64,000 bases of DNA from NCBI GenBank assembly GCA_021204025.1, contig JAJQAC010000066.1:1-64000 (forward strand). Reading direction: 5' to 3'. A model generated the notes under the pieces. It saw only the letters and a program-made list of their open reading frames with translations, was not told the origin of the DNA and made no database searches. Within the stretch, counting starts at the first letter, position 1. Every line of letters begins with the position of its first letter. Of the stretch, positions 36,519-63,240 are shown in pieces. Position numbers and translations under genes: made by a program. The stretch is from Clostridiales bacterium (GTDB taxonomy: Bacteria > Bacillota > Clostridia > Lachnospirales > Lachnospiraceae).

Positions 36519-36694
36519 GAGAATGCGCCTAAGCGCATTCTCGCGCCGAGCGCGGTCGCTTTAGCGACATAATTCCTTACGCGCGAGTGCGCATCTACAC
36601 TCCGTTTCGATCGGCGCTAAACGAGCGCCACTGGCGCTCAGCGCTCCGCTCGGAGGGCTTTTGTCTTATAGGATGAATTTCCTATAAGACAAAA
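36519..36694 (+). repeat. Structured intergenic repeat, copy A (with 3' hairpin module)
   Basis: The core is 36519-36592. Hairpin P1 is GAGAATGCGC/GCGCATTCTC with a CTAA loop. Stem P2 pairs GCGCG with CGCGC plus outer GC pairs around a G-A internal loop. Hairpin P3 is GTCGC/GCGAC with a TTTA loop. The 3'-side bulge contains ATTCC. A further hairpin GAGCGCC/GGCGCTC (36623-36639) follows. The 3' module has CGGAGGGCTTTT leading into a perfect 15-bp inverted repeat with arms at 36659-36673 and 36680-36694. Confidence 0.75.
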
Positions 36695-36751
36695 CCGCCT
36701 GACAGTTTTTCAACATCAAGCGGTTTTCTGATCATCGTAAATTATTTTTCA

Positions 36752-36874
36752 TTCCATAGGAAAGTACGTCCTATGGAACAAAAAGCCCTCCGGGCGGGAT
36801 CGCACTGCGGCGGAGTGGAAATATGTCACTAAAGCGACCCGCCGCAGGCGGAGAATCCTGCTTTGCAGGATTCT
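36752..36874 (-). repeat. Structured intergenic repeat, copy B (with 3' hairpin module)
   Basis: The minus-strand core is 36874-36801. P1 is AGAATCCTGC/GCAGGATTCT. P2 is a perfect 9-bp CTGCGGCGG/CCGCCGCAG. P3 is GTCGC/GTGAC with a TTTA loop. The bulge contains ATTTCC. The 3' module repeats CGGAGGGCTTTTTG followed by the hairpin TTCCATAGGA/TCCTATGGAA (36778-36752). It begins 14 bases after the pckA stop and faces copy A. Confidence 0.75.
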
Positions 36875-36888
36875 TTTTAAATAGAGAT

Positions 36889-38493
36889 TCAGATCTGCGG
36901 ACCTGCGGATACCAGTGCCTTGCCCAGTTCATTGCCTTCATACTTGGCAAAATTCTTAACGAAGCGCTGTGCCAGATCCTTTGCCTTGGTCTCCCACTCG
37001 GAAGCATCCGCATAAGTATCACGAGGATCGAGGATCTTCGGATCAACACCCGGAAGCTCAGTCGGAACCTCAAAGTTAAAGTGCGGGATCATCTTGGTCG
37101 GAGTATTCAGGATCGAACCATCCAGAATCGCGTCAATAATACCGCGGGTATCCTTGATGGAGATACGCTTGCCCGTGCCGTTCCATCCGGTGTTAACCAG
37201 ATAAGCCTTAGCACCGCTTTGCTCCATTCTCTTAACCAGCTCTTCCGCGTATTTGGTCGGATGCAGCTCAAGGAACGCCTGGCCAAAGCATGCCGAGAAG
37301 GTTGGGGTCGGCTCGGTGATACCGCGCTCGGTACCAGCCAGCTTAGCCGTAAATCCGGACAGGAAATAATACTTGGTCTGCTCCGGAGTCAGGATCGATA
37401 CCGGAGGAAGTACGCCGAACGCATCTGCAGACAGGAAGATAACCTGCTTTGCAGCCGGTGCGGAAGATACCGGACGTACAATATTCTCAATATGATCGAT
37501 CGGATAAGATACACGGGTATTCTCTGTTACGCTCTTATCTGCGAAATCAATCTTGCCGTTCTCATCCAGAGTAACATTTTCCAGCAGCGCGTTGCGTTTA
37601 ATCGCATTGTAGATATCAGGCTCTGCGTCCTTATCCAGATTGATTACCTTTGCGTAGCAGCCACCCTCAAAGTTGAAGACGCCGTTGTCATCCCAGCCGT
37701 GCTCATCATCGCCGATCAGCAGACGCTTCGGATCGGTGGAAAGCGTGGTCTTGCCGGTTCCGGAAAGTCCGAAGAAAATAGCGGTATTCTCGCCGTTCAT
37801 ATCCGTATTGGCAGAACAATGCATGGAAGCGATGCCCTTCAGCGGCAGGTAGTAGTTCATCATGGAGAACATACCCTTTTTCATCTCTCCGCCGTACCAG
37901 GTATTGATAATTACGGATTCACGGCTTGTAATGTTGAAGACAACAACAGTCTCAGAATTCAGTCCCAGCTCCTTATAATTCTCTACCTTCGCCTTGGAAG
38001 CGTTGTAAACGACAAAATCCGGCTCAAAGTTTGCCAGCTCCTCATCGGTCGGAGTGATAAACATATTCTTCACAAAATGAGCCTGCCAGGCTACCTCAAC
38101 GATAAAGCGGACTGCCATGCGGGTATCCTTATTCGCACCGCAAAATGCGTCAACAACATAAAGTTTTTTATCAGAAAGTTCCTTTTTTGCGATCTCTTTT
38201 ACAGCCTCCCAGGTCTCCTTGGATGCCGGATGGTTATCATTCTTATACTCATCGGAAGTCCACCAGATGGTGTCTTTGGAATTTTCATCCATAACGATGA
38301 ACTTATCCTTCGGTGAACGGCCTGTATAAATACCGGTCATTACGTTTACTGCGCCCAGTTCACTCACCTGGCCCTTATCATACCCCTCAAGCGCCGGATT
38401 CATCTCCTCCTCAAAGAGCATCTCATAAGAAGGATTGTACACGATTTCAGTAGTTCCTGTGATGCCATACTTAGTTAAATCAATCTTTGCCAT
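36889..38493 (-). CDS. pckA: Phosphoenolpyruvate carboxykinase (ATP)
   Basis: From ATG 38493 the protein has 534 residues. It has the ATP-type signature, the P-loop [11 protein letters not shown], the metal/oxaloacetate site motifs ([21 protein letters not shown] region) and RVSYPIDHI. An ATG at 38502 has GAGG directly abutting it, whereas the ATG at 38493 has proper nine-base spacing and is preferred. In anaerobic gut Firmicutes the enzyme often runs toward oxaloacetate, conserving ATP (inference). It is monocistronic, with a promoter at 38572-38600. Confidence 0.97.
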
Positions 38494-38571
38494 AGTTTTC
38501 ATCCTCTTTTCTTTGACTTTGTAACTTTGTATATTTTCTTAATGTTGAAAACAAAAACCGTATCGTATATA

Positions 38572-38600
38572 ATTTTATAATACCTTCCACATACTGTCAA
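38572..38600 (-). promoter_or_regulatory. Sigma-A promoter of pckA
   Basis: On the minus strand TTGACA (38600-38595) and TAAAAT (38577-38572) are 17 bases apart, about 75 bases before the start codon. Confidence 0.7.
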
Positions 38601-38661
38601 GAATTTTTCGTTAAATTTTTCACCAAAATTTTTGTAAAAAATCGTCGTTTTTATAGTACGA

Positions 38662-38690
38662 TTGAAAAGTTCTCCGCCGGAGTGTATAAT
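38662..38690 (+). promoter_or_regulatory. Sigma-A promoter of the pectinesterase gene
   Basis: TTGAAA (38662-38667) and TATAAT (38685-38690) are 17 bases apart. The spacer holds a small palindrome CTCCGCCGGAG, a possible operator. The leader is about 25 bases. Confidence 0.72.
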
Positions 38691-38720
38691 CATAACAACT
38701 CAAATGAGGAGGACAAAAAA

Positions 38721-39695
38721 ATGAAGCAAATCCGGATCCGACCGGACAAAACAGGAGATTATCCTGATATAACAGCCGCGCTTAAGGCCCTGCAAGATAC
38801 CGACAGCAGTATTCCTGTAACCATTCTGCTGGCAAACGGCGTCTACCACGAGCGACTCGTCATCACGCGTCCCCATCTGACTCTGATCGGAGAAAATCCG
38901 GACAAAACCATCTTAACCGGAGTTCTCTATGCCCGAATGCCCTGCCCGGATATCGGAAAACTCGGCACGTTCCGTACTTATTCCTGTATGATTGATACTC
39001 ATGACTTTACCGCAGTCGGCATCACCTTTGAAAATACTGCCGGAAAGGGTCCGGACGTCGGGCAGGCACTTGCGCTTTATGCAGACGGCGACCGGCTTGT
39101 ATTTGATCACTGTCGTTTCCTCGGCGGTCAGGATACGCTCTTTACCGCTCCGCTCCCTCCAGCAGAACGGGAAGCGCACGGGTTTACCGGTCCCGGCGAA
39201 CATCGTCCGAGACGTCCCGGACGCCATTATTATAAAAGCTGCTACATCGAAGGGGATATTGACTTTGTCTTTGGCGGCGCCGCGGCCTACTTTGAAAACT
39301 GTGAATTTTTTTCCAAAGATATCGGCAAACCTGTCAACAGTTTTGTCACCGCAGCCTCCACTCCCCAGAACCAGACATATGGTTACGTGATGCAAAGCTG
39401 CCGTTTCACCGGAAACTGTCCGCCGCACTCCGCCTATCTCGGACGTCCCTGGCGTGAATACGCGAAAACCGTCCTTCTGAACTGTGAAATCGGTGCCCAC
39501 ATCCGGCCCGAAGGATGGGATGACTGGAATCGGCCAGAGGATCATAAAACGGTCTTTTTCGCCGAATATCAGAGCGTCGGACCTTCTTCTGATATAACAA
39601 AACGCCCCGGCTGGGTCCATCAGCTGACCCATACCGAAGCGTCACAATATACCAGAGAACTTGTCCTGCGTGGCAGCGACGGATGGCATCCCTGA
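38721..39695 (+). CDS. Pectinesterase family protein (CE8), probably cytoplasmic
   Basis: From ATG 38721, with GAGGAGG upstream, the product is 324 residues. Right-handed beta-helix pectin methylesterase motifs are visible: GQALALYADGDR, FLGGQDTLF (catalytic Asp), GDIDFVFGGAAAYFENC (second Asp) and LGRPWREYAKTV. It removes methyl esters from galacturonan, releasing methanol. No signal peptide or membrane segment is present, so it probably acts on imported oligogalacturonides (inference). No other pectin genes are nearby. Start choice: an in-frame upstream ATG at 38682 lies inside the promoter. Confidence 0.9.
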   Translation: MKQIRIRPDKTGDYPDITAALKALQDTDSSIPVTILLANGVYHERLVITRPHLTLIGENPDKTILTGVLYARMPCPDIGKLGTFRTYSCMIDTHDFTAVGITFENTAGKGPDVGQALALYADGDRLVFDHCRFLGGQDTLFTAPLPPAEREAHGFTGPGEHRPRRPGRHYYKSCYIEGDIDFVFGGAAAYFENCEFFSKDIGKPVNSFVTAASTPQNQTYGYVMQSCRFTGNCPPHSAYLGRPWREYAKTVLLNCEIGAHIRPEGWDDWNRPEDHKTVFFAEYQSVGPSSDITKRPGWVHQLTHTEASQYTRELVLRGSDGWHP

Positions 39696-39698
39696 AAA

Positions 39699-40457
39699 TC
39701 ACCTGTAAAATTCATGCCCGTCATGCTGAAACAGATAGGTAAGCTGTCCGTCAAACCAGCGCACATTACCGGAATACGACGCGCTTCGATTCATAAAGTA
39801 AAGGGCTCCCTGCGAATAATCCTCACCCGCCAGCGCGCGGTCAACCGCTTCCATCGTCTGCCTGCTCACACTACATGTATTAATACTGCCATTTTTAACC
39901 GGAGAAAACTGAGACTTCTGATAAACAACATCGGTAATGCTGTCGGGAAACTCTCCGGCTTTCACCCGGTTCAGCACAACATTTGCCACCAGGATCTTTC
40001 CTTTCATATCGCATCCCCCGGCTTCTGCCTGAACAATCCGGGTCAGGACCCGATAATCTTCCTCCGAGCAGGGGACTACTACGGATCTGTGCTTCTCTGC
40101 CTCTGCCGCCGCGGCAGCTTCTTTTGCCTGACGGCTACGTTCTTCTTCTATCTCAGAAATTGCTTTCTGTGCTTCTCTTACCTTCTCCCGCTGCGTCTCT
40201 CTTAATTTTTGCCTGTCTTCTACACTTTTGGTCAGCGTATTACCGACCAGCTGCTGTCCTTCCTGAGAAATCAAACGTTCTGATAACCGGATCGGAGCCG
40301 TCGCCTGCGTACTTATAAAGTTTTCTTTGGACACTTCTTCCTGTATATCCATCGAACTGACCGTCTGACCGGGAGCTGCCCCGGCCGCAGTCAGAACCAT
40401 GAAAGAAAGGACTGCCGCCCCGGCCGCAGCCGTCATGGCTGATCTTACTGCCAGCAT
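39699..40457 (-). CDS. Cell wall hydrolase, SleB-like (Hydrolase_2), secreted
   Basis: The 252-residue protein has an N-terminal signal peptide (MLAVRSAMTAAAGAAVLSFM...), a charged coiled-coil-like stretch at about residues 75-120, and a C-terminal SleB/CwlJ-type domain. That domain begins LTRIVQAEAGG with the catalytic Glu. Such enzymes are lytic transglycosylases acting on spore cortex or vegetative wall. ATG 40457 has AGGTG five bases upstream; GTG 40463 is an alternative. It is convergent with the pectinesterase gene, with only three bases between the stops. Promoter at 40563-40591. Confidence 0.9.
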   Translation of the reverse strand: MLAVRSAMTAAAGAAVLSFMVLTAAGAAPGQTVSSMDIQEEVSKENFISTQATAPIRLSERLISQEGQQLVGNTLTKSVEDRQKLRETQREKVREAQKAISEIEEERSRQAKEAAAAAEAEKHRSVVVPCSEEDYRVLTRIVQAEAGGCDMKGKILVANVVLNRVKAGEFPDSITDVVYQKSQFSPVKNGSINTCSVSRQTMEAVDRALAGEDYSQGALYFMNRSASYSGNVRWFDGQLTYLFQHDGHEFYR

Positions 40458-40562
40458 ACTCACACCTCACTTTTATATAACGTTCCCCGAAAAATCACTC
40501 AAATTGTGTCGAAAGTGGGGACGCAGAGCCTTTATTTCCTTGTTTTTTACGGCTTAGTGGAT

Positions 40563-40591
40563 ATTATAGTGGGAGTATGGTGTTTTTGCAA
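40563..40591 (-). promoter_or_regulatory. Sigma-A promoter of the SleB-like gene
   Basis: On the minus strand TTGCAA (40591-40586) and TATAAT (40568-40563) are 17 bases apart, about 100 bases before the start. Confidence 0.68.
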
Positions 40592-40666
40592 CGGATATTT
40601 TACATTTTTGTTACAATTTTTATTGATTTTGTGATAATTGCAGACTGTTTTATAAGGTTTCCATAA

Positions 40667-40707
40667 AAACAAACCGCCAAAAGCCTTGCAATTTGGCGGT
40701 TTTTCTT
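40667..40707 (-). terminator. Intrinsic terminator of ybaK
   Basis: On the minus strand AAACCGCCAAA and TTTGGCGGTTT pair around about ten bases, followed by GTTTTTA. It lies about 40 bases after the ybaK stop. Confidence 0.75.
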
Positions 40708-40743
40708 TTCTTATTTCCAATTATATATTACTTTTTTGTTAAA

Positions 40744-41229
40744 TCAGATCGTCAGATTCTCATACTTACCATCTACATAAGCCCTCAGATCCTCCGGTTT
40801 CAGGATAATCTGAACGCCACGCATCCCGGCGCTCACTGCGATCTCATCAAAAAGCTGAGCGGTTTCTTCAATATAAGTGGGGAATTTTTTCTTCATTCCG
40901 ATCGGCGAACAACCGCCGCGAATATAACCGGTCACCGCAAGCAGATCCCGCACAGGAATCATCTCTGCCTTCTTGTCGCCGGATGCTTTTGCGACTTTTT
41001 TCAGGTCCAGTTCCTCAGCAACCGGAATACAGCACACCAGATATCCCGTTCTCTCTCCCTTTAAAACCAGGGTCTTAAAACAGGTATCCGGATCCTGACC
41101 CAGCTGCGCTGCCACATGGACACCGGACAGGTCTTTCTCATCGACTTCATATTCCATTGTCCGGTAGGAAATCCCTGCCGCATCCATCAGCCGCATCACA
41201 TTCGTTTTTTCCTTTTTCTGGACCTTCAT
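40744..41229 (-). CDS. ybaK: Cys-tRNA(Pro) deacylase YbaK
   Basis: A protein of 161 residues with the YbaK/ProX editing-domain fold: DPDTCFKTLVLKG, the catalytic Lys region, and GGCSPIGMKKKFPTYIEE. YbaK hydrolyses Cys-tRNA(Pro) made by prolyl-tRNA synthetase. The gene starts 20 bases after the leuC-like gene on the same strand and may be read from that operon. Confidence 0.94.
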   Translation of the reverse strand: MKVQKKEKTNVMRLMDAAGISYRTMEYEVDEKDLSGVHVAAQLGQDPDTCFKTLVLKGERTGYLVCCIPVAEELDLKKVAKASGDKKAEMIPVRDLLAVTGYIRGGCSPIGMKKKFPTYIEETAQLFDEIAVSAGMRGVQIILKPEDLRAYVDGKYENLTI

Positions 41230-41248
41230 AACGCCCTCTTAAGTCCTT

Positions 41249-42499
41249 TCAGCCGCATACCGCGGTAATCTTTCCCGCCACCGCACAGGCCGCCGCAGTC
41301 GCCGGAGACGCCAGATAAATCTGTACCTTTGAGGTACCCATCCGACCCAGAAAATTGCGGTTATTTGTAGCAACAACGGTCTCATAATCACTCAGAATGC
41401 CGCCGGTACGTCCACAGCACAGCCCGCAGCCGGCATGCGTGATCATCGCGCCCGACTCTGCCAGAGTCTCCAGAATTCCTTCTTCTAATGCCTCGCGATA
41501 TACCTTACGGCTTGCCGGAGTCACAATCAGCTTCACGAACGGGGCGACTTTTTTCCCGCGGAGCACATTCGCCGCTGCCCGCAGATCCTCCAAACGCCCA
41601 TTCGTACAGGATCCGATAAAGACCTGATCAATCGGAGTTCCCTCCAGCTCACTCACATCGCGAATCTGATCCACCTGCGACGGACAGGCCATCACCGGGA
41701 CAAAGTTCTCCGCCTGATAAGTCAACGTCCGGATATACCCGGCGTCCGCGTCTCCGACAAGGCTCTTCTGAAAATCATTTAATTCCATCTCACAATAAGC
41801 CGCTGTCTTTTCATCCGGCGTAAACATCGCGCACTTTGCCCCCGCTTCAATCGCCATGTTCGCCATCGTCATACGGCTCGCAACGCTCATCTCCCGGATC
41901 GTATCACCGGTAAATTCAAGAGAACAGTAGGTAGCTCCGTCCGCCCGAAGATCCCCGATAATCCGCAGAATGACGTCTTTGGACATCACACCTTCCGGGA
42001 GTCTGCCGTTGATCTCCACCCGGATCGTCTCCGGCACTTTCACCCAGAGTGTGCCGGTTCCCAGAATCGCCGCCATCTCCGTGTAGCCGATTCCCGTGGA
42101 AAAAGCTCCCACACAACCGTACGTTGTCGTATGGCTGTCCGTACCAAATACCACATCACCCGGTTTTACATAACCGGCCTCCGTCATCAGCTGATGACAG
42201 ATACCATCACTGCGGTGGACATGGGTCAGGCCATATTTTGACGCAAAAGCATCTCCGACCTTATAGTGTCTGGTATCATCCTGCTGGCTTGCCGGCACAA
42301 GATGATCATAAATCATAACCACCTTGTCCGGATCCCAGACCCGATCAAAGCCCATCTCCTCAAACTTGCCAACGATAAACGGCATCATGATATCATCCAC
42401 CATCACCCGATCAACCTGAACGGTTACGATCTGGCCTGGTTTTACCTCATCTGCTCCAATATTATGTGCAATGATCTTTTCAATAATTGTCTGTCCCAT
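41249..42499 (-). CDS. 3-isopropylmalate dehydratase-type large subunit (pair 1)
   Basis: From ATG 42499 (GGGAG upstream) the product is 416 residues, the short archaeal-type LeuC/HacA class rather than the 466-residue bacterial LeuC. [4Fe-4S] ligands are visible: Cys in FIGSCTNGR and a CGLC pair in HAGCGLCCGR. Substrate loops HRSDGICHQL and GTDSHTTTYG are present. The enzyme isomerises or dehydrates hydroxy acids. Given ilvC and ilvH upstream, leucine synthesis is plausible. A second pair lies directly upstream, so one pair may use another substrate such as citramalate or dimethylmalate. Confidence 0.88.
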   Translation of the reverse strand: MGQTIIEKIIAHNIGADEVKPGQIVTVQVDRVMVDDIMMPFIVGKFEEMGFDRVWDPDKVVMIYDHLVPASQQDDTRHYKVGDAFASKYGLTHVHRSDGICHQLMTEAGYVKPGDVVFGTDSHTTTYGCVGAFSTGIGYTEMAAILGTGTLWVKVPETIRVEINGRLPEGVMSKDVILRIIGDLRADGATYCSLEFTGDTIREMSVASRMTMANMAIEAGAKCAMFTPDEKTAAYCEMELNDFQKSLVGDADAGYIRTLTYQAENFVPVMACPSQVDQIRDVSELEGTPIDQVFIGSCTNGRLEDLRAAANVLRGKKVAPFVKLIVTPASRKVYREALEEGILETLAESGAMITHAGCGLCCGRTGGILSDYETVVATNNRNFLGRMGTSKVQIYLASPATAAACAVAGKITAVCG

Positions 42500-42518
42500 C
42501 CCTGTCTCCCTTCTGCCG

Positions 42519-43010
42519 TCAGGCAAGTCCGTTGCGGCGGCGCATCGCCTTTACCAGTCCGCCTTCCCTGATAATCTCCACCAGATTATCCGGCAGAGAA
42601 TGGATAGGATACTTTTTGCCATGATACTCAACCGCTTCATTGACAGTTACCGTAATCTTCTCACCTTCCAGAATATCGTCATACAGATCCGGCTGCTCGA
42701 TCAGCAGCAGGCCGTTATTGATCGAATTGCGGAAAAAAATGCGGGCAAAAGATTTCGCAATGACACAGCGGATGCCCAGGGCTTTGACAACCTCCGGCGC
42801 CTGCTCACGGGAAGAACCACAGCCGAAATTTTTGCCGGCCACAATGATATCTCCCTCATGGATCTGTGCCGCAAGTTCCGGCCGCAGCGGAGAAAAACCA
42901 TACTGCTTCATATCTTCAATCGTCTTTAACGCCAGATATTCTGTCGGAATAATGATATCGGTATCGATATCATCTCCCAGAACCCATACGTTTCCTGTAA
43001 ACTTTTCCAT
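42519..43010 (-). CDS. 3-isopropylmalate dehydratase-type small subunit (pair 1)
   Basis: The 163-residue swivel-domain protein has DDIDTDIIIPTEYL, FGCGSSREQAPEVVKALG and FARIFFRNSINNGLLL, all typical for LeuD-like subunits of the archaeal type. It precedes its large-subunit partner by 19 bases. It shares about the same layout as the small subunit at 44281-44763 but is clearly diverged, so the pairs are not a recent duplication. Confidence 0.9.
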   Translation of the reverse strand: MEKFTGNVWVLGDDIDTDIIIPTEYLALKTIEDMKQYGFSPLRPELAAQIHEGDIIVAGKNFGCGSSREQAPEVVKALGIRCVIAKSFARIFFRNSINNGLLLIEQPDLYDDILEGEKITVTVNEAVEYHGKKYPIHSLPDNLVEIIREGGLVKAMRRRNGLA

Positions 43011-43027
43011 CCTGTCTCCGCCCTTTC

Positions 43028-44278: not shown

Positions 44279-44280
44279 AA

Positions 44281-44763: not shown

Positions 44764-44791
44764 GACTTATCCTCCCTTTTCCCCTGACGCC

Positions 44792-44879
44792 CCTGCGATC
44801 GAGTAGGAGGCGGCCTTTTGCCTCATACTCGCCGCGCGGGCCGGGTGCGGCATAAGCCGCAAAATTCCTTACCCGGTCC
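44792..44879 (+). repeat. Structured intergenic repeat, copy C (first tandem unit)
   Basis: P1 is CGAGTAGGAGGC/GCCTCATACTCG (44800-44831). P2 is GGGCCGGGT/ACCCGGTCC (44838-44846, 44871-44879). P3 is GCGGC/GCCGC with an ATAA loop (44847-44860). The bulge AAAATTCCTT is on the 3' side. It is followed at an 86-base period by copy D. Confidence 0.8.
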
Positions 44880-44970
44880 TGCGATCGAGTAGGAGGCAGC
44901 TTTTCGCCTCTTACTCGCCGCGCGGATCGGGTGCGGCGCAAGCCGCAAAATTTCCTTACCCGGTCCTGCG
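44878..44970 (+). repeat. Structured intergenic repeat, copy D (second tandem unit)
   Basis: P1 is CGAGTAGGAGGC/GCCTCTTACTCG (44886-44917). P2 is GGATCGGGT/ACCCGGTCC (44924-44932, 44958-44966) with one G-U pair. P3 has a GCAA (GNRA) loop (44933-44946). The bulge is AAAATTTCCTT. Differences from copy C fall mainly in loops or keep pairing. Confidence 0.8.
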
Positions 44971-44973
44971 CAT

Positions 44974-45008
44974 AAAAGGGCAGGAGGTTAAATCTCTCCT
45001 GCCTTTTT
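44974..45008 (-). terminator. Terminator of ilvC next to the tandem repeat
   Basis: GGCAGGAG and CTCCTGCC pair perfectly around about nine bases, with T-runs on both strands (AAAAG on the left arm, TTTTT on the right). It lies about 50 bases beyond the ilvC stop on the minus strand and could also end any plus-strand transcript of the repeats. Confidence 0.75.
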
Positions 45009-45058
45009 CGCATTTAACCTGTTCTTCCAGGGTTCTTATTCATCTGCAACGACAACCA

Positions 45059-46090
<1,032 letters not shown>

Positions 46091-46169
46091 CTAAGGATTT
46101 TTAAATAAATGATCTATGCGTAAAAGGTCTGACGCCGATGTCCATCCCGGCGCTCCTTACCGCCCATAC

Positions 46170-46199
46170 TGAAAAAAACGACAGATTATTTTTGTCGTT
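46170..46199 (-). terminator. Intrinsic terminator between ilvH and ilvC
   Basis: On the minus strand AACGACA and TGTCGTT pair around nine bases and are followed by TTTTTC. It lies about 20 bases after the ilvH stop. Confidence 0.75.
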
Positions 46200-46221
46200 C
46201 ATCATAAATTGTCGATCCGTA

Positions 46222-53940: not shown

Positions 53941-53947
53941 GTTATTG

Positions 53948-55064: not shown

Positions 55065-55071
55065 CGCTGCA

Positions 55072-55869: not shown

Positions 55870-55902
55870 TTCCCCGCTCTCCTTTTGCCAAACACATTCG
55901 TA

Positions 55903-55931
55903 AGTATAACAAAAAAGGAAGTTTCTGTAAA
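55903..55931 (-). promoter_or_regulatory. Sigma-A promoter of scpA
   Basis: On the minus strand TTTACA (55931-55926) and TATACT (55908-55903) are 17 bases apart, about 30 bases before the scpA start and after a terminator. Confidence 0.7.
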
Positions 55932-55955
55932 GACTCAACGAGCTTTGCCACAAAC

Positions 55956-55983
55956 GCAAAAACCGACCCTCACGGTCGGTTTC
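55956..55983 (-). terminator. Intrinsic terminator of the metallophosphoesterase gene
   Basis: On the minus strand ACCGACC and GGTCGGT pair around a five-base loop and are followed by TTTTG. Confidence 0.78.
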
Positions 55984-56061
55984 TCTCCGGTTTCTGATTT
56001 TCTTTTCCACACAACACATACCCGCAGGTACTTAACCGCCGGCAGCATACCTTTCCTTGAT

Positions 56062-56961
56062 TCACTTCTGCTGTCCGGACATTCCCGGTTCCAGCCGGAT
56101 CACACATACCTGCGGGAGATTACCCAGCCGGATATTGACAGAATGTGTCCCCAGCCCCCGTCCTACAAGCATCCGGCGCTCACCCTTTTCAAAGGTTCCC
56201 GCGCAGTAACGTGAAAAGAACTGATACTGTGGTGTCATAAGCCCGCCGAGCACCGGCAGCCGGATAGTACCGCCATGAAAATGACCAGCCAGCGTAAGAT
56301 CCGCGCCCCATCCAACATAAGCATCAAAAAACAGCGGATTGTGCGCCAGCAATATCTGATAACGTTCCGGCTCCGGTTTCCCCAGATGTGCCGTGACAAC
56401 ACGCGCCGACAGATTCGGCGGGAAGAAATTATCATAATACTTTTTATCGAGATTCAATCCGCTGATCCGCACATCATCCCACAGAAAGGCAGAACCGTCA
56501 GAAAGATATCTGATCCGGTTCTTATGCAGGATCCTGCGGAATTTCTGATAGAGTCCCCGGTACTCCTCCGGTTCCTGCCACATCCGTTGTTCATGATTTC
56601 CATTGGCATAATAAACCGGACATAACCCTGCCAGATCTTCCAGCAGATCTTCCGTTACCGCAAGCTCTGCTTTCCGGGGCTTTACCAGCATCATATCTCC
56701 GCCGATCAGAACCGCGTCCGGACGGATTTGCCGTACCGCATCCAGCAGGCGCCGGTTTCTCTGTCCAAATTCCCGGTCATGAAGATCTGTAAGAAATACC
56801 AGCGTATGGGCACTTCGAATCTTCGGAGACGCAATTTTCGTTTCCTCCACTACAAAATGAGCCCGTTCATATTCGGATCGCAGCAGCGCCGCTGCCAGCG
56901 CCGCGGTTCCCGCCGCTGCTCCCATTTCCAGAAACCGATGATTATGATTCACGAATCGCAT
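56062..56961 (-). CDS. Metallophosphoesterase, YkuE-like, possibly membrane-attached
   Basis: The 299-residue protein has the calcineurin-like metal motifs in order: FLTDLHD, IGGDMM, YANGNHE, LLAHNP and LAGHFHGG. An N-terminal hydrophobic, alanine-rich segment (about residues 12-27) may be an anchor or signal. YkuE-type enzymes act on phosphoesters outside the membrane. Its ATG immediately follows the HAD gene stop, with AGGAG inside that gene, so the two are coupled. Confidence 0.9.
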   Translation of the reverse strand: MRFVNHNHRFLEMGAAAGTAALAAALLRSEYERAHFVVEETKIASPKIRSAHTLVFLTDLHDREFGQRNRRLLDAVRQIRPDAVLIGGDMMLVKPRKAELAVTEDLLEDLAGLCPVYYANGNHEQRMWQEPEEYRGLYQKFRRILHKNRIRYLSDGSAFLWDDVRISGLNLDKKYYDNFFPPNLSARVVTAHLGKPEPERYQILLAHNPLFFDAYVGWGADLTLAGHFHGGTIRLPVLGGLMTPQYQFFSRYCAGTFEKGERRMLVGRGLGTHSVNIRLGNLPQVCVIRLEPGMSGQQK

Positions 56962-57648
56962 TCAACTCCTTCCGGATGCCGGATGATCCTTTTCTTTCAA
57001 CCATGTCGCCACCTCATGCAGAGAACGGTAGACAGCCGCTGCCCGTTGCCGGATCATCGGTGTCGGCGGCGTCAGATCCGGAACCATAATAACCGCAAAG
57101 CCTCCGGCAAATCCGGCCGCCACCCCGTTCAGGCTGTCTTCCAGTACCAGGCAGTTGGCAGGTCTTTCTCCTGCCAGTTCTGCCGCACGCAAAAAGATTT
57201 CCGGATCCGGCTTCGCGTGACTTACCATATTGCCCGTGATCATTCCGTCAAAATATGCTTCGACTCCGGCTTCTCTCAGATTATTGACTGTATATTCCGC
57301 GGAACTCGCGGTTGCCAGTATTATTTTATACCCGTTTTCCTTTAAATATTCAAGAAGTTCCCGAAGTCCCGGCTTAACCGGCACTCCCCGTTCTCTTAAA
57401 ATCTTCCTCACATATTCCCATTTGCGCTCTCTGAGCGGGGTTAACGGGAAATCCGCGCCAAAAGTTTCCCGGAAACGTATCGTCGCATCCTCAAGGTTCA
57501 TGCCCCGGATTGTGCTTAAAAAGGACTCTTCGAGATGGATCCCCATCTCCTGTCCCGCCAGATCCCAGGCCTCCGATGACACCCTCTCGGTATCAAACAT
57601 CAGTCCGTCCTGATCAAAAATCACCGCGCGAATATCCTGCTTCTTCAT
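56962..57648 (-). CDS. HAD superfamily hydrolase, beta-phosphoglucomutase-like
   Basis: From ATG 57648 (GGGGAGG nine bases upstream) the product is 228 residues. HAD motif I is FDQDGLMFDTE, motif II ILATAS, and motif III KPDPEIF with VLEDSLNGV. The helical cap of subclass I is present. Members are sugar-phosphate phosphatases or mutases; the substrate cannot be told. It starts 17 bases after the DD-carboxypeptidase stop and runs into the phosphoesterase gene. Confidence 0.92.
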   Translation of the reverse strand: MKKQDIRAVIFDQDGLMFDTERVSSEAWDLAGQEMGIHLEESFLSTIRGMNLEDATIRFRETFGADFPLTPLRERKWEYVRKILRERGVPVKPGLRELLEYLKENGYKIILATASSAEYTVNNLREAGVEAYFDGMITGNMVSHAKPDPEIFLRAAELAGERPANCLVLEDSLNGVAAGFAGGFAVIMVPDLTPPTPMIRQRAAAVYRSLHEVATWLKEKDHPASGRS

Positions 57649-57665
57649 TCTTTGATTCCTCCCCC

Positions 57666-59195
57666 TTACTGCCATATTCCATTCGCATCCACCGTATATC
57701 CGTCCGGCGTCACCGTATTGGTAAGCATTGCGCCATCACTGTCCAGATAATACCAGTTCCCGTTATCCTGGATCCACTGACCTTTCATCGTGTAGCCGAT
57801 CGTGGGCTTCAGATAATACCAGTTCCCGTTTACGTATTTCCAGCCTGTCGCCATCTTCCCATCAGACTCAAAATAATAGTCCAGTCCGCTGACAGTCACC
57901 CATTCGTCCGCAGCCAGACTTCCGTCGTCTTTATAATAATACCACTCTCCGCTCACCTGATTCCATCCGGACTGCACACTTGTCTGGCTCCCCGGACCTC
58001 CTGTCGATGCTGTCGACGGATTCGAGCTGCCTACAACAGCCGTACCACCCGGTCCTGTGACGACCCCCGTTGTCTGGGATGAAACTGCCGGACCTGTTAC
58101 CGTTGCCGTCGTCGAAGAACTCTGATCGGACGTTGAGGGATTTGCCTGAGCCGTCTGACTGCCCGCGATCACTACACTGCTCCCGCTCTGTCCGGATGCG
58201 CCCGGACCTGTCACCGTCGTCTGACCGGTCTGAGCAGTTTCCGACGTCCACGATGACGCGCTTCGACCGGTCAGCGTCTCGTAATTTTCAAATCCATAAT
58301 CCAGCATTGCTTTGGTATCTGTGTAATGAGTGCCCGATGATTTCAAAACCACCGCAACCAGACGCACGCCGTTACGCTCTACTCCTGTTACGAGAGTATT
58401 GCCTGCCGCGGATGTATAACCGGTCTTGCCGCCGATAATTCCCTCATAATAACGCGAATCTGAGGGATACATCATCTTGTGTCCCATCGTGATGGTATGC
58501 GCCGCCGCATTCTGCACAGCCGGGAATTCGTAACTCAATGTCGTATCAATCTTCTGAAAGGTCTCGCTCTCCAGCGCCGCGGCCAGTATCAGACACATAT
58601 CATAAGCCGTCGTCTTGTGTGTGGAATCTGTCAGCCCGTGCGGATTGGAAAAATGAGTATTCTTACAGCCAAGACTGGCCGCCTTCTGATTCATCAGATC
58701 CGCAAACGCACTGTTGCTCCCGGAAATATGCTCCGCAAGACCATTCCCGATCTCATTGGCAGACTTTAGAAGCAGTCCGTACAGCGCCTGCTCAACCGTA
58801 AGCTGATCGCCTTCCGAGATATCGAGCGATACCGCCCCGGACTCCAGATTGGTCGTCGCCGTCGCGGAAAACGTCACAATATCATCCAGGCTGCAGTACT
58901 CCAGCGTAAGCAGCGCTGTCATCACCTTGGTAATGCTTGCCGGATAAAACTGCTCATCCTGATTTTTCCCGTATAATACCTGCCCCGTCCTTGCATCCAT
59001 CAGACAGGCGCCCTGTGCCGAAACCGTCGGTTCCTCCAGGTCAGCCGACGATGATGAAGCATCGGAAGTCACTGTTGTCGGTGAGGACACCGTGATCGGC
59101 GTCAATACCGTTTCTGCATATACCGTCTGTCCCAAAAGCAGCGCGAAACCAAGTCCCAGCCCCGCAGCCCGCCTGCATATCTCCCTTAATCTCAT
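57666..59195 (-). CDS. D-alanyl-D-alanine carboxypeptidase with C-terminal cell-wall-binding repeats
   Basis: The 509-residue protein has a signal peptide and a penicillin-binding domain with SITK (87-90), SAN (145-147) and KTG (257-259). A Ser/Thr/Gly-rich linker covers about residues 315-410. Choline-binding-type aromatic repeats (GEWYYYKDDG, NWYYL, NWYYLDSDG) end the protein. It trims the terminal D-Ala of peptidoglycan stem peptides outside the cell; the repeats attach it to the wall. The linker sequence is simple and may vary between strains. AGGAG precedes the ATG. Confidence 0.94.
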   Translation of the reverse strand: MRLREICRRAAGLGLGFALLLGQTVYAETVLTPITVSSPTTVTSDASSSSADLEEPTVSAQGACLMDARTGQVLYGKNQDEQFYPASITKVMTALLTLEYCSLDDIVTFSATATTNLESGAVSLDISEGDQLTVEQALYGLLLKSANEIGNGLAEHISGSNSAFADLMNQKAASLGCKNTHFSNPHGLTDSTHKTTAYDMCLILAAALESETFQKIDTTLSYEFPAVQNAAAHTITMGHKMMYPSDSRYYEGIIGGKTGYTSAAGNTLVTGVERNGVRLVAVVLKSSGTHYTDTKAMLDYGFENYETLTGRSASSWTSETAQTGQTTVTGPGASGQSGSSVVIAGSQTAQANPSTSDQSSSTTATVTGPAVSSQTTGVVTGPGGTAVVGSSNPSTASTGGPGSQTSVQSGWNQVSGEWYYYKDDGSLAADEWVTVSGLDYYFESDGKMATGWKYVNGNWYYLKPTIGYTMKGQWIQDNGNWYYLDSDGAMLTNTVTPDGYTVDANGIWQ

Positions 59196-59373
59196 AACCC
59201 TTCTCCTGTCGTATTTTCTGAAGATCCGTCATTCCGTCATACAGCAGGCATCAAAGACAGTGCAGTGCCATCCTGCTCATTTCCGGAAGCTGTATTTAAG
59301 CATAACACAGAATCTGATAAAAAAGTATGACAAATCCATTAAATTTGCTGAAATACTTTTTTCACTCTGCAGC

Positions 59374-59420
59374 AAAAAAACGTCCCTATGGCATTCAGAC
59401 TCATCTGCCACAGGAACGTT
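59374..59420 (-). terminator. Intrinsic terminator of the serine-rich protein gene
   Basis: On the minus strand AACGTTCCTGTGGCA and TGCCATAGGGACGTT pair (two mismatches) around about 12 bases and are followed by TTTTT. It begins about 17 bases after the stop codon. Confidence 0.82.
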
Positions 59421-59436
59421 TCTTTATTCCGGATAA

Positions 59437-60213
59437 TTATTCCACTACGATAATCTGCAGGGTACACGAAGTCGGTATCTGGCAATGTACCAGCTGGTTT
59501 TCAATGTCTACAGAGGTCGGATCCAGATAGCTGTACTGCTGTGTCCAGTTATTATAGCACAGCACAACCAGCTTTCCGGCGTTCTCTGTCGTAATCGCCG
59601 AGCAGTAAATCGTTGCAGGACCGCCCGCCTCGTTTCTGGCAGCGAGCGTCGGACCCAGGGTAGTCTTTCCTGAAGTATCCAGACCTGTGATACCGCTCAG
59701 ATCTCCTTTGTCCGCCTTATCAAGAGCCGCTACCACTGCTTCCGGCAGACCTGCTCTCTTCGCCACTCCACTTGTTACATAGGTAGTTCCGGGATTGTTT
59801 ACCTCTTTGTGTTCGGCTGTATGTTCCGCAACCAGGGCGATCGTGATACCCGTAGCCGGATCATAATAGGCAGCACCGGCGTCATACGTAGAACCAGACT
59901 CGGTTGTAACAACAGCAGCTGTTGTCTCAATGATACCGCTGTCTGTCGTTGTGGTGCCGCTGCTCTCCGTCGAACTGACAGATGAACTCGATGTCGAGCC
60001 GCTAGGACCGCCTGCTACATACACGCTGCTGGAGCTGCTGGAACTGCTGCTACTGCTGGAGCCGCCGCCACCGCCACCGCCGCCGCTGCTGCTATTGCTG
60101 GAGGCCGGCCGGCTGGACCCACTCGATGTGCTCGTACTGCCTGCTGCAAACACAGCTGCCGGCATCGCTACCAGCACCATCGCAAGCAGAAGAGCTTTCA
60201 ATGATCGTTTCAT
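59437..60213 (-). CDS. Secreted serine/glycine-rich hypothetical protein
   Basis: From ATG 60213 the product is 258 residues. It starts with a clear signal peptide (MKRSLKALLLAMVLVAMPAAVFA). A low-complexity region follows with runs of eight Gly and twelve Ser, then a Ser/Thr-rich stretch. A C-terminal domain of about 130 residues has no family I recognise (GITIALVAEHTAEHKEVNNPG..., WTQQYSYLD). It lies 59 bases after the LCP gene, at the end of the capsule-control genes, so a surface role is plausible. The homopolymer-like codons (60020-60110) could be prone to length change. Confidence 0.8.
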   Translation of the reverse strand: MKRSLKALLLAMVLVAMPAAVFAAGSTSTSSGSSRPASSNSSSGGGGGGGGSSSSSSSSSSSSVYVAGGPSGSTSSSSVSSTESSGTTTTDSGIIETTAAVVTTESGSTYDAGAAYYDPATGITIALVAEHTAEHKEVNNPGTTYVTSGVAKRAGLPEAVVAALDKADKGDLSGITGLDTSGKTTLGPTLAARNEAGGPATIYCSAITTENAGKLVVLCYNNWTQQYSYLDPTSVDIENQLVHCQIPTSCTLQIIVVE

Positions 60214-60272
60214 TTTTATCACCATCCTTTTTTTATTTTCAATAAACGGCCCCATGCCGTATATTGCATTTA

Positions 60273-61541
60273 TCATGTTGTCTCACGGTAAAACAACTTT
60301 AAAACCATCGGGATCGCCTGATTGAAGTTTACATGATACTCGTCAAACGTATCTGTCGTGATCCCCAGACCCGGCAGAGTATAGAAAGAGTCATCCTCAA
60401 GTGTGCCGCTGTTTAAGGAATCAACCGCGATCTTAAGATACTGTGACTTATCCATATCCGTGATCATATAATCCTGAATCATGTCAAAGAGACGCACCAC
60501 GATACCGCTGTCTTCTTTTGACTTTTCCTGAAGTGTCTTAAAATACTGCCGGATATATTCCCGGTGCTGATCCATACGGTATACCGCGCTGTGATCTCTC
60601 TCGATATCCCGATAACGGACAAAGGCTTCCGCCTGGCTCCCTCGCAGAGTAACCTGACTTCCCATCACAAACTCCGGGTCTTTTTTCTCCATCCCGTCAG
60701 TCGGGATCGTAACGGTCACGCCGCCTACCGCATCATTTAGCTCTGCAATCACAGCGGTATCCACCGCCAGATAATGATCAATCTCAAGGCCGCACAACAC
60801 ATCAGAAGCCGCCTCCACCATCCGTTCACAACTGTCGGTACTGCCATCTCCGTAACCAAAGGCCAACGTCAGGTGATCGAGCCACAGTCCCAGATCATTG
60901 CCGTCCTCGTCTGTCTCCCTCACCGCAGTCATCGTATCTCTGGGAATCATCAGGACCTGAATCTGATTTCTCGCTGTATCCTGGGCAATCAGGAAAACAC
61001 CGTCTGCCTGTCCCGTCTCTCCAAACCCCCGGACTCCATCCATGGTGTCGTTCCGATCGATACCCATGCAGAGAATTGCTTTCATATAGCTGCTGCGTCG
61101 ATACGTTTTATCCTGCCAGGTAACCGTTCCGTCCTCATGATGAATCAGCTGCGCCTTCTGCTCCAGTCCCGCGCGATATAGCTGTCTGGATACCTCTGTT
61201 GTATCCGCACCAATCGATACTTCCTGAGTTGCCACACCAGCCGTCACGTCGCCTGTCCCGGTCTCCTGGGTCCCGGTACCAGCTGATTTTTCCTCTGCCA
61301 GTGCCGGTTCTGTCCCACTCTGTCCGGATTCTCCCGTCTGTGAACCGTCAGATGCCAGCTCCTGTCCCGGCACATTTTCCGCCTCAGCGGTCTGTCCGGT
61401 CCAAGCTGCGTACAACGCTTCCTGCGCTCTCCGCTCCTGATATTTCCCGATGCCATACCAGATAAAGACAGCTACGGCCGCCATGATTAAGCCGATCAGG
61501 GCATTTCTTATCTGGGTATAATGGCTTCGAAACCAGCTCAT
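60273..61541 (-). CDS. LytR-CpsA-Psr (LCP) family glycopolymer transferase
   Basis: The 422-residue protein has one membrane helix (ALIGLIMAAVAVFIWYGIG), a Gly/Thr-rich linker and an LCP domain. The domain is marked by CMGIDRND, QADGVFLIAQ, MIPRDTM and later RYRDIERDHSAVYRMDQHREYI. LCP enzymes attach capsule or wall polymers to peptidoglycan outside the membrane. Its start overlaps the kinase stop by four bases. It corresponds to CpsA of capsule operons. Confidence 0.94.
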   Translation of the reverse strand: MSWFRSHYTQIRNALIGLIMAAVAVFIWYGIGKYQERRAQEALYAAWTGQTAEAENVPGQELASDGSQTGESGQSGTEPALAEEKSAGTGTQETGTGDVTAGVATQEVSIGADTTEVSRQLYRAGLEQKAQLIHHEDGTVTWQDKTYRRSSYMKAILCMGIDRNDTMDGVRGFGETGQADGVFLIAQDTARNQIQVLMIPRDTMTAVRETDEDGNDLGLWLDHLTLAFGYGDGSTDSCERMVEAASDVLCGLEIDHYLAVDTAVIAELNDAVGGVTVTIPTDGMEKKDPEFVMGSQVTLRGSQAEAFVRYRDIERDHSAVYRMDQHREYIRQYFKTLQEKSKEDSGIVVRLFDMIQDYMITDMDKSQYLKIAVDSLNSGTLEDDSFYTLPGLGITTDTFDEYHVNFNQAIPMVLKLFYRETT

Positions 61542-62305
61542 GACTCTGCCTTATCCTCCCGGTCATACCGATTGTATTGGGCATATTTTCCGTATTTGCC
61601 ATACTTACCGTATTTGCCATATTTCGCATATTTGGAATATTTGCCGTAACGGTCATAGTACGAATCGTGATAGATATCAACCTTATTGAGCACCACGCCC
61701 AGGATCCGGCAGCCGGAACGTACCAGCTGTTCCTTTACTCTCTGTTCGAGACGATAGCTGATCGCTCCGCTCTCGATCACCAGAACGGCTCCGTCGCATT
61801 GACGCGCCACAATCGCTCCGTCGATCAGGTTTGCCATCGGGGGAGTATCGATAATCACATACTCATAGTTCTGCTTCGCATAAATCAGAAGCTCCGTAAA
61901 AAGATTTTCCTCCAGCAGCTCCGTCGGTTTCGGCGAATAGGGACCTGCAAAAATCACGTCCATATTATCGATGTTGGTTCCATAAATAATCTCATCCAGC
62001 ATTTTCTGTCCTGTCAGATAATGGGTCAGACCATTTACTTCTTCCAGAACATGATACCGGGTCACCAGAATACTCTTGCGGATATCGCAGTCGATCATCA
62101 GCGTCTTCTTGCCGATCTGTGCAAGCGACCGGGCGGCAGAGAAAGAAACATCGCTCTTACCCTCATCCGGCATCGCACTGGTAAACATAACGGTACGGAT
62201 ATTATTGCCGCAGAACTGCAAATTGGTTCTCAGAGTCTTGATCGCCTCATTATAGTTATAATCGTCCTTCGCCTCACTCTTAAGCGTAATTATCTGCTTT
62301 TCCAT
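61538..62305 (-). CDS. CpsD/CapB family tyrosine kinase with repetitive tyrosine tail
   Basis: The 255-residue BY-kinase has the Walker A variant SAMPDEGKSD near residue 47, Walker A' LMIDCDIRKS and Walker B VIIDTPP. The C-terminus is a striking cluster of 13 tyrosines, 11 of them spaced exactly three residues apart as YGK-type units. In this family the tail is autophosphorylated and controls capsule length. GKSD differs from the common GKST/GKSS. It overlaps both neighbours by a few bases and needs the adjacent chain-length protein as activator. Confidence 0.94.
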   Translation of the reverse strand: MEKQIITLKSEAKDDYNYNEAIKTLRTNLQFCGNNIRTVMFTSAMPDEGKSDVSFSAARSLAQIGKKTLMIDCDIRKSILVTRYHVLEEVNGLTHYLTGQKMLDEIIYGTNIDNMDVIFAGPYSPKPTELLEENLFTELLIYAKQNYEYVIIDTPPMANLIDGAIVARQCDGAVLVIESGAISYRLEQRVKEQLVRSGCRILGVVLNKVDIYHDSYYDRYGKYSKYAKYGKYGKYGKYGKYAQYNRYDREDKAES

Positions 62306-63102
62306 CAGCTTTTCCTCCGTTTCTCCGGCGCACGGTTTTTCCCGTGTTGATCCGACGAGGCCGGTTTATTCTTTGCCATCGCCTCTTTGTCTTCCGCCGT
62401 TTCATTTTCACGTACAGGAACCGCCGCAAGCACAGAGAGTTCCAGATACCTGACAACGTCCTCTTCTGTACGCACAGAATCATTCATAATCACTTCCAGA
62501 GTGATCAGGCCGCAGACAAGAACCATACCCGCTAACGCTCCGATCATCGCGTTTTTGGTATTGCTGGGGCTGGTTTTCTCTGTCGGTACCTCACCTGTCT
62601 CGATAATCTTCGGCGGCGCCATTTCCATAATATCAGCAATATAATCGGCTGATCTGGACGCTACCTCATCTACAATCTTCTTCGCTGTTTCCGGATCCGG
62701 ATCCGTAGCGGCAATCGTCAGGATACGTGTGTTCGTCGGATTATCAATCTTCAGCCTGCCTGCCAGCTGCCTGTATGTCATATCCAGGCCAAGGTTATGT
62801 ATGACGTCCTGCAACACCGGACGGCTTGTCACAATCACTTTATAATCCAATGTCAGCTGACTGCCGATCTGCAGATCCGCCAGCGAAGTAAGCGTTGTCT
62901 CCTTCGATAAAATATATACCATCGCGGAAGATGTATATTGCGGCGTCAACGCAAATACGCTATACGCACCCGCCAGTCCTCCGCCCAGTATCATCGCAGC
63001 AAGGATGATCCATATTCTCTTTTTAAATTCTAAAAGGATCTGTAGTAGATCGATCTCAATCACATCATCTCTGCCATTTCTCATGTTTTGTTTATTCTCC
63101 AT
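62305..63102 (-). CDS. Polysaccharide chain-length determinant (Wzz/CpsC) protein
   Basis: The 265-residue protein has the Wzz topology. An N-terminal membrane helix (IWIILAAMILGGGLAGAYSVFAL, about 31-53) precedes an extracellular domain, then a second helix (MIGALAGMVLVCGLITLEVI). A basic cytoplasmic tail (KKPASS...EKRRKS) ends it. In Firmicutes CpsC proteins activate the CpsD kinase. It follows the capsule phosphatase gene after a 187-base gap holding a structured repeat and an 18-base palindrome. Confidence 0.93.
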   Translation of the reverse strand: MENKQNMRNGRDDVIEIDLLQILLEFKKRIWIILAAMILGGGLAGAYSVFALTPQYTSSAMVYILSKETTLTSLADLQIGSQLTLDYKVIVTSRPVLQDVIHNLGLDMTYRQLAGRLKIDNPTNTRILTIAATDPDPETAKKIVDEVASRSADYIADIMEMAPPKIIETGEVPTEKTSPSNTKNAMIGALAGMVLVCGLITLEVIMNDSVRTEEDVVRYLELSVLAAVPVRENETAEDKEAMAKNKPASSDQHGKNRAPEKRRKS

Positions 63103-63116
63103 CCTGATTTCTCTTT

Positions 63117-63134
63117 GGTAACGGATCCGTTACC
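63117..63134. repeat. Perfect 18-base palindrome
   Basis: GGTAACGGATCCGTTACC is its own reverse complement. It lies 14 bases upstream of the chain-length gene start and about 16 bases from repeat copy E, in the position of the 3' hairpin module of the other copies. It may be an operator or part of the repeat. Confidence 0.6.
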
Positions 63135-63149
63135 TGCTCCCTCTTATTT

Positions 63150-63240
63150 ATGCACACGGGCGAATATGGAAATCTTGCAGCTCACGCTGCATCTGCCCGG
63201 CGCAGCGAGTATGAGACAAAAAAGCCGTCTCCTACTCGAT
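63150..63240 (-). repeat. Structured intergenic repeat, copy E
   Basis: On the minus strand P1 is CGAGTAGGAGAC/GTCTCATACTCG (63238-63206). P2 is GCGCCGGGC/GCCCGTGTGC with one bulged base. P3 is TGCAGC/GCTGCA with a GTGA (GNRA) loop (63191-63176). The bulge contains ATTTCC. It is clearly homologous to copies C and D with compensating base changes. Confidence 0.8.

Follow-up and report, generated by a model that had tools for sequence, protein, structure and literature searches.

The dispersed repeats in the 64,000-nucleotide stretch of DNA analyzed here (the window) are probably copies of a non-autonomous mobile DNA element, with a build like that of REP and PATE elements and a choice of sites like that of group IIC introns. 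The element is about 80 to 93 nt long, longer when composite, and consists of two hairpins, P1 and P2/P3, of which the second has a bulge on one side and a hypervariable stem; some copies are truncated at the 5' end. The sequence-only reading had placed five repeats in the window and described their P1, P2, P3 and bulge, and a check of the sequence found both the positions and the descriptions correct. The predicted fold of every window copy is stronger than that of 200/200 dinucleotide shuffles, with z from -3.9 to -7.9.

The clearest copies are C and D, which form a head-to-tail pair. Copy C is the first unit (44798..44883, + strand) and copy D the unit nearer the terminator (44884..44970, + strand), and P1 of C-type copies is ATCGAGTAGG..CTACTCG. 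A covariance model, R1, was built from copies C, D and E with twelve further copies from the same genome. In the window it finds D with 104.8 bits, E (63153..63242, - strand) with 95.6 bits and, weakly, A, while C was found in the genome-wide search (C45:44796-44883, 103.1 bits). Directly past the pair is the intrinsic-terminator-like hairpin of the ORF at 45059-46078 (- strand), located at 44971..45003 on the - strand, whose T tract, CATAAAA on the + strand, adjoins the 3' end of copy D. Copy E has on its 3' side an 18-nt palindrome noted by eye (63117..63134, - strand), which has no clear T tract, so that E supports the terminator rule described below only weakly. Among the five window copies that rule is plain only in the C/D pair, as A and B have 3' modules of their own.

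Copy A (36519..36592, + strand) matches R1 weakly at 29.6 bits and E = 5e-4, and further A-type places were found by blastn. Its stems are P1 GAGAATGCGC/GCGCATTCTC, a short P2, and P3 GTCGC-TTTA-GCGAC, with the bulge ATAATTCCTTA and the 3' end GTGCGCATC. The 3' modules of A (36593..36694, + strand) begin with a half M module, which is TCTACACTCCGTTTCGATC and a bulged hairpin, and continue with GGAGGGCTTTT and the hairpin TCTTATAGGA..TCCTATAAGA. Copy B (36801..36874, - strand) has P1 AGAATCCTGC/GCAGGATTCT, a P2 of 9 pairs, P3 GTCGC-TTTA-GTGAC and the bulge ATATTTCCACT, followed by a 3' module (36752..36800, - strand) made of CCGCCCGGAGGGCTTTTT and the hairpin TTCCATAGGA..TCCTATGGAA. The search of the window with R1 gave no match to copy B, and its place in the family rests on the architecture and on a 40-nt stretch that is 75% complementary to copy A (repeat I3). 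With their different P1 and additional 3' modules, A and B form a divergent subfamily.

That the repeats are a dispersed family holds well beyond the window. Further copies were looked for in the host genome and were found by the dozen, with at least 118 covariance-model matches at E ≤ 1 and at least 81 below 0.001, making this a high-copy family. Two copies on one contig are identical over 84 nt, and other pairs reach 98 to 99%. Presence across the order is patchy, with at least 10 of 61 genomes in one set and at least 5 of 295 in another, both lower bounds since a capped number of candidates was scored per genome (G001 and G011, at zero in the 61-genome survey, each hold an R1 match), and it is patchy even in the genus, where at least 7 of 24 genomes have a match. 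Two genomes from another family of the same order (G279 and G294) carry the same element end, and their terminator-like flank is also the same. No element match was found in 72,556 plasmid records or 50,697 phage records, and a viral collection gave one matching stretch. A larger set of at least 111 stretches, 100 of 111 of which were searched for model matches, was collected by a pattern fixing much of P1; it is unsuited to prevalence, and the constancy of P1 in it is partly built in because that pattern served to collect the loci.

The covariation noted between the five copies is real. In 119 distinct copies, pairing is kept in 96.0% of pair cells, and two-sided changes occur at 22 of 28 pairs, most commonly in P2 and P3. 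P2 shows 56 different 9-mers in 110 copies with the fold retained, and subfamilies have both P2 arms changed together. The fixed bulge also generalizes, with a one-sided length of 10 to 11 nt in 112/115 copies and the motif TTCC in 82/115 (bulge and loop counts are from 115 of the 119 alignment rows). GNRA loops do not carry over as a family feature, being present in 10/115 copies only. An Rfam search of the window gives a tRNA hit only, in keeping with the earlier statement that the repeats match no named RNA class, and for 12 loci searched at E ≤ 1 no match was located on an element. To these we add the balance of mismatches in the distinct rows of alignments A3 and A4, in which G-T and A-C are equal at 104:99 with one terminal pair excluded that is G-T by rule (72 G-T and 1 A-C), and 176:100 with that pair added. 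The 104:99 balance does not favor selection on one RNA strand, although a G-T bias could be masked by neutral decay of dead copies. A functional RNA class is unsupported by the Rfam searches and the mismatch bias. Of the proposal that selection acts at the level of RNA or single-stranded DNA, the single fold and the covariation stand, while the mismatch balance and the scarcity of GNRA loops weaken the RNA side. The sequence-only reading had also named a known mobile repeat or an Rfam family as one of the findings that would tell against it, and in kind the repeats do largely belong with mobile repeats, as indicated by copies adjoining terminators, by a biased direction and by empty orthologous sites, although no named family matches.

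The main new result is a rule of insertion: the constant 3' end of the element, GTGCATAAAA, abuts a terminator-like hairpin. Once tandem-internal copies are removed, 88% of 108 3' flanks fold at ≤ -8 kcal/mol, versus 39% of left flanks and 36% of random sequences, and the 3' flank has the consensus CATAAAA (right flanks from 107 of 134 matches, left flanks from 89). A strict perfect-stem hairpin finder gives 47% right, 3% left and 2% random, and for 38 of the host's own copies 40%, 18% and 8%; folding energy was also used because the strict finder undercounts bulged terminators. On the opposite strand a gene is followed by the terminator hairpin, then by TTTTTAT(G) and then by the element. Most copies are found past the T tract, in antisense to the gene that ends there. 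Orientation relative to the neighbors is 44 '<<' versus 7 '>>' (p = 1.2e-7) for 93 copies in named genomes. These are the 93 of 121 matches that have both neighbors and flanks of 400 nt or longer, tandem copies being counted singly; gene calls are rough, as 31 copies share over 60 nt with a crude ORF of 70 aa or longer. The host's own copies give 18 versus 4 among the 35 of 40 with both neighbors in view. The 3' neighbor reads away from the element in 21 of the 93. Arrays are head-to-tail, the copy beside the terminator being as a rule preserved best, and the copy nearer the terminator scores higher in 26 of 29 neighbor pairs among the matches listed, with very short fragments and the cut L258 pair set aside and with copies of G006 and G013 only in part covered.

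Comparison with the sister species G006 covered 7 of 9 own sites inside L321-L323; the other two, C61:33618 and C61:48074, were left out where G006 contigs end. At 4 of the 7 orthologous loci the terminator is present in G006 and the element absent, and at the remaining 3 there is a remnant or another element. At the sites labelled A and B the difference from G006 exceeds one repeat unit, and at site 2 there is a short unmatched stretch. By eye, one possible target-site duplication of 10 nt was seen, at C66:82746, and none clear elsewhere.

We propose that a trans-acting DNA-processing enzyme would fold the element as a single strand, read the shape of the bulged P2/P3 hairpin more than its stem sequence, and attach the element behind the T tract of a terminator that lies exposed in single-stranded form. 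Such an insertion would spare the terminator, so that the next copy would land between the terminator and the older copy. As the class of enzyme we tentatively prefer, at somewhat less than an even chance, an HUH (Y1) transposase of the kind found in IS200/IS605 or REP systems; the reverse transcriptase of a group IIC intron, or some other enzyme, would be the alternative. The searches turned up neither an autonomous copy nor a partner gene. Co-occurrence does not nominate Y1_Tnp as the mobilizer, its presence not following copy number: G006 has at least 63 matches but Y1 only as a 60-aa fragment, G036 has at least 2 copies with neither Y1 nor RVT_1, and G016 has 7 Y1 matches with no copy at E ≤ 0.001 listed. 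Nor does it nominate a reverse transcriptase, RVT_1 not following copy number either, with 13 RVT_1 matches and at least 1 copy in G010. Y1_Tnp in the host genome amounts to two broken IS200-like copies. When these two copies and 10 Y1_Tnp loci from relatives were searched with R1, the only matches were to separate elements in the neighborhood (L273, L032). No recurrent transposase was recognized by eye in the 25 largest protein clusters from 111 loci, the largest being common families such as ABC-type proteins. Two long Y1 frames were observed in G027.

A competing route is spread through RNA, in which a reverse transcriptase, for instance one from a group IIC intron, would copy RNA of the element with priming at the terminator's T tract. 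Insertion behind intrinsic terminator motifs is reported for group IIC introns (PMC4424553), and the host has a group II intron following hairpin-TTTTTTATG on an A-type copy; by eye, a hairpin and T tract precede 2 of 3 further introns with the 5' side read. The constant end of the element is, moreover, the end at the T tract, and the 5'-truncated copies fit as well. We nevertheless consider this route unlikely, since most of the matches listed span the whole model, giving most copies a precise 5' end, while RVT_1 does not follow copy number (G036, G010), Rfam gives no intron match on the element, and G-U is not above A-C except at one pair. A bacterial counterpart of SINEs, that is, a 90-nt non-coding retroelement with neither ribozyme nor gene that borrows group IIC intron machinery, is more doubtful again; there the terminator T tract would be both landing site and primer for RNA copying.

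Two further explanations start from the fold itself. Stem arms some 25 nt apart are plausible substrates for template-switch correction, and spread could be real while the covariation is mutational, with template switching between the arms keeping P2 palindromic in the absence of function; palindrome correction could in this way yield covariation without selection. The two-sided changes are commonest in P2 and P3, and subfamilies change both arms together. The same process should also erase a one-sided bulge, yet the bulge keeps its length and, in most copies, its TTCC, and we rate this account as rather unlikely. It seems very improbable that selection keeps the copies near terminators as a cis-acting RNA or a structured element of 3' ends, for example for mRNA protection or as a back-up to termination. 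This idea draws on the covariation, the strong folds and the place beside terminator-like hairpins, but most copies lie past the T tract, in antisense to the gene that ends there, distribution is patchy even in the genus, orthologous sites are empty, G-U shows no excess over A-C except at one pair, and the largest clusters of neighboring proteins are, by eye, common families.

The mobile DNA element of the preferred explanation resembles several known systems. Like the REP, BIME and REPIN sequences served by TnpA-REP (RAYT), it has no coding capacity and occurs between genes in many copies, as imperfect palindromes that share a conserved bulge in the stem and form tandem arrays; the REP combination of a stem-loop with a bulge, repeated many times in intergenic DNA, is seen here. 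It differs from REP in its pair of dissimilar hairpins, arranged in direct order, a one-sided bulge of 10 to 11 nt, a fully changeable stem, insertion on the terminator side, and the lack of a GTAG tag on the 5' side of the bulged hairpin; inspection of the opposite strand shows GCACAGG or GCGCAGG in front of this hairpin, and GTAG lies inside the P1 stem. No intact TnpA-REP (RAYT) gene was found in the host genome. PATE, the ends-only derivatives of IS200/IS605, are described in one account (PMC7290912) as ending in a hairpin on both sides, lacking terminal inverted repeats, and inserting on the 3' side of a short, fixed target that is not duplicated. The element shares with them a hairpin near each end, the lack of inverted repeats and one constant flank, and of the PATE features the hairpins and a one-sided target are seen, along with the one possible 10-nt duplication; in contrast to PATE, no parent IS with such ends was found at the Y1_Tnp loci, and the ends of the resident IS200-like element are different.

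Group IIC introns are similarly placed directly past a hairpin and T tract in a single orientation, whereas the element is about 80 to 93 nt and has no intron domains and no reverse transcriptase gene. The integron attC site is also a folded single-strand site read by shape, with unpaired bases, a highly variable stem and ordered arrays, but no cassettes were seen here. MITEs are, as the element is, short, non-autonomous, multi-copy and intergenic, and have terminal inverted repeats and target duplication; the element has no terminal inverted repeats and, by eye, no consistent target duplication, with one possible case. For this non-coding element, present in many copies in Lachnospiraceae-type bacteria, we found no Rfam family and, in searches of open-licence PubMed Central, recognized no published description. 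Because most of one stem has changed with the fold kept, its copies are a natural experiment on the reading of hairpins by a DNA-processing enzyme, and they suggest that covariation, the usual sign of a functional RNA, can also mark a mobile DNA element. The element combines the palindromes of REP and attC, kept in shape and free in sequence, with the directional terminator-side insertion of group IIC introns.

The roughly 90-nt intergenic repeat is a mobile, non-coding element, terminator-side, biased in orientation and conserved in shape. Its five proposed window copies (A to E) are all confirmed in place, each folding more stably than every one of 200 shuffles, and Rfam searching of the window yields tRNA alone, in keeping with the sequence-only reading, which could not match the repeats to a named RNA class. 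On the top strand the unit reads (A)ATCGAG-P1-GCC-GCGC-P2-P3-bulge-P2'-T-GYGC-ATAAAA, where P1 and P3 are hairpins and P2 is a stem. In C-type copies P1 is ATCGAGTAGG..CTACTCG; the scan pattern itself specifies P1, which accounts for part of its constancy in the large set. P2 takes 56 different 9-mers among 110 copies, and P3 has five pairs, with TTTA, GTCA and CTTA as its commonest loops. The loop sequences GCAA and GTGA had been called GNRA type, a type present in just 10 of 115 copies; the bulge, said to be fixed, is indeed 10 or 11 nt long in 112 of the 115, with TTCC in 82.

Alignment A2, made from C, D, E and twelve copies of the same genome, has 97.8% of its paired cells pairing vs 92.7% in shuffles and two-sided changes at 9 pairs vs 3.9, and the pairing is destroyed once the partner is slid. 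The covariance model R1 was derived from it. The proposed covariation holds in 119 distinct copies from named genomes, where the paired fraction of cells is 96.0% (79.5% after shuffling), two-sided changes occur at 22 of 28 pairs, and the alignment reaches a covariation score of 0.42 vs 0.15 shuffled and at most 0.09 slid; this alignment was fitted to the model and leans towards it, a lean from which the slid controls and the single-copy folds are free. Among copies from another family (genomes G279 and G294) even P1 and P3 have changed, with the layout kept in three of the four read and P3 absent from the fold of one, L362.

The window's own genome (3.04 Mb in 91 contigs) has the further copies that had been anticipated: a BLASTN query with C and D returns 47 matches, and R1, with 150 candidates scored, gives at least 118 matches at E ≤ 1, 81 of them below 0.001, counts in which one composite copy may appear twice. 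Two copies on contig C61 share an 84-nt identity and several other pairs are 98-99% identical, which suggests from the sequences that the family spread recently. At E ≤ 0.001, carriers number at least 10 of 61 genomes (this one and 60 relatives), with at least 70 matches here, at least 63 in the sister species G006, at least 60 in G013, at least 11 in G027 and 1-5 in each remaining carrier; inside the genus they are at least 7 of 24, this genome included. The 10 of 61 is a lower bound: G001 (L273:2128-2203) and G011 (L282:1430-1507), both zero in that tally, each contain an R1 match, found near loci examined on other grounds, and the family extends further than the tallies indicate. An order-wide sample of 295 evenly drawn genomes gives at least 5 carriers at E ≤ 1e-5, belonging to two families. 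Pattern scanning of named genomes finds at least 111 stretches; among the 80 titles listed, many are Lachnospiraceae, and others are Butyrivibrio, Roseburia, Dorea, Hungatella, Eubacterium, Clostridium, Ruminococcus, uncultured bacterium and one Bacillus MAG. The listed carriers include the isolate Lachnospiraceae bacterium COE1 (L204, L219), for which an expanded 5S rRNA is described (PMC7812874).

Beyond the 3' end of the element, 107 non-internal copies share the consensus CATAAAAA (C 93%, A 94%, T 81%, then A 82-90%), and the left flank of 89 copies has no strong consensus beyond the element. In 88% of 108 copies the 3'-side 45 nt have a folding energy of -8 kcal/mol or lower, compared with 39% for the left flank and 36% of 513 random stretches, and on the opposite strand the order is gene, terminator hairpin, T tract, element. 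Of 93 copies with both neighbours in view, 72 have a 3'-side gene that points towards the element and 21 have one that points away, and same-direction arrangements split 44 vs 7 (p = 1.2e-7); the own-genome split is 18 vs 4, among the 35 copies out of 40 for which two neighbours are in view. Of 29 head-to-tail neighbour pairs, 26 have the higher score in the terminator-proximal copy (p = 1.5e-5). Within the window the rule is plain at the C/D pair only. About 20 nt past one copy there is a T-box leader (L136:1610-1839), which means that an adjoining hairpin can be part of a leader; at L289:3476-3724 another T-box match, scoring under the gathering threshold, is separated by about 2 kb from the copy at that locus.

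G006 is 90% identical to the window locus and syntenic across the stretches compared. At four of seven loci compared it lacks the element and has the terminator hairpin: C66:82746 (clean save for an A-rich stretch, possibly duplicated), C66:90720 (where a short stretch is unmatched), C85:14923 (also lacking a second repeat) and the array at C85:23609-23758. A remnant or different element occupies C66:99284, C61:31594 and C85:12097. By this sequence comparison, the terminator occurs at sites that have no element and is separate from it, not one of its parts. G006 also has many matches, on either strand, to a dispersed repeat of about 160 nt (L323:4206-4369, L323:11638-11812, L321:10098-10264).

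Copies A and B represent a second subfamily. Its P1, AAAAAGAATGCGCC..GGCGCATTCT, is terminator-like on the opposite strand, and it has extra 3' modules, which in many copies end in ATAAAAA before a native hairpin. Directly at A-type P1 hairpins we find a C-type copy (C89), a group II intron (C23) and an IS200-like copy (C14). The intron (RF02001, RF01998; L287, G000:C23, 1-1300) begins exactly where an A-type element's hairpin and TTTTTTATG stop, and its reverse transcriptase extends past the contig end. A third repeat, module M, combines a 19-nt head, TCTACNCTCCGYTTCGGTC, with a bulged hairpin and occurs singly or in REPIN-like inverted pairs, placed in or next to the P2 stem in some copies (window 36593-36650; L064-L072, L074, L075, L081, L106-L108). 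Elsewhere in the window, the ORF pairs 41249-42526/42519-43010 and 43028-44278/44281-44763 have similar lengths and long direct repeats in common (D1, D5, D8), suggesting tandem duplication of a two-gene unit.

Selection on one RNA strand would be expected to leave more G-T than A-C mismatches there. The counts are 104 and 99 (p = 0.78) with one terminal pair omitted (72 rows with G-T, one with A-C), and 176 and 100 with it included. Of the proposal of selection at RNA (or single-stranded DNA) level, the covariation stands; we read the mismatch counts as giving no support to an RNA strand as the selected molecule, although the omitted pair points towards RNA, and equal counts would also be expected from neutral decay of dead copies.

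Our first choice for moving the element would be an HUH enzyme. By co-occurrence, neither Y1 transposase nor reverse transcriptase follows the presence of copies, and a look for Y1 in the own genome gives nothing but broken IS200-like copies. Group IIC introns reportedly insert after intrinsic terminators (PMC4424553), the same type of landing site. Of four group II introns read on the 5' side, three (L281, L285, L287) are preceded by a hairpin and T tract, the fourth, L284, starting too close to its contig end for judging. A hairpin and T-rich stretch also precede all three IS200-like copies read (L031, L032 and, in G001, L273), which is why the HUH route is kept first. IS200/IS605 elements are described as inserting 3' of a short target with no duplication (PMC7290912), in line with a target confined to one side. 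In L031 and L032, both from the own genome, the frames are interrupted and nine consecutive G occur in the same region. As to identity, a known Rfam RNA and a group II intron were rejected, REP was rejected by the tag test and the partner-gene test, and no parent was found that would make the element a PATE. Status as a new class would require the enzyme; the element works like a passenger of REP/PATE type with a landing rule like that of group IIC introns.
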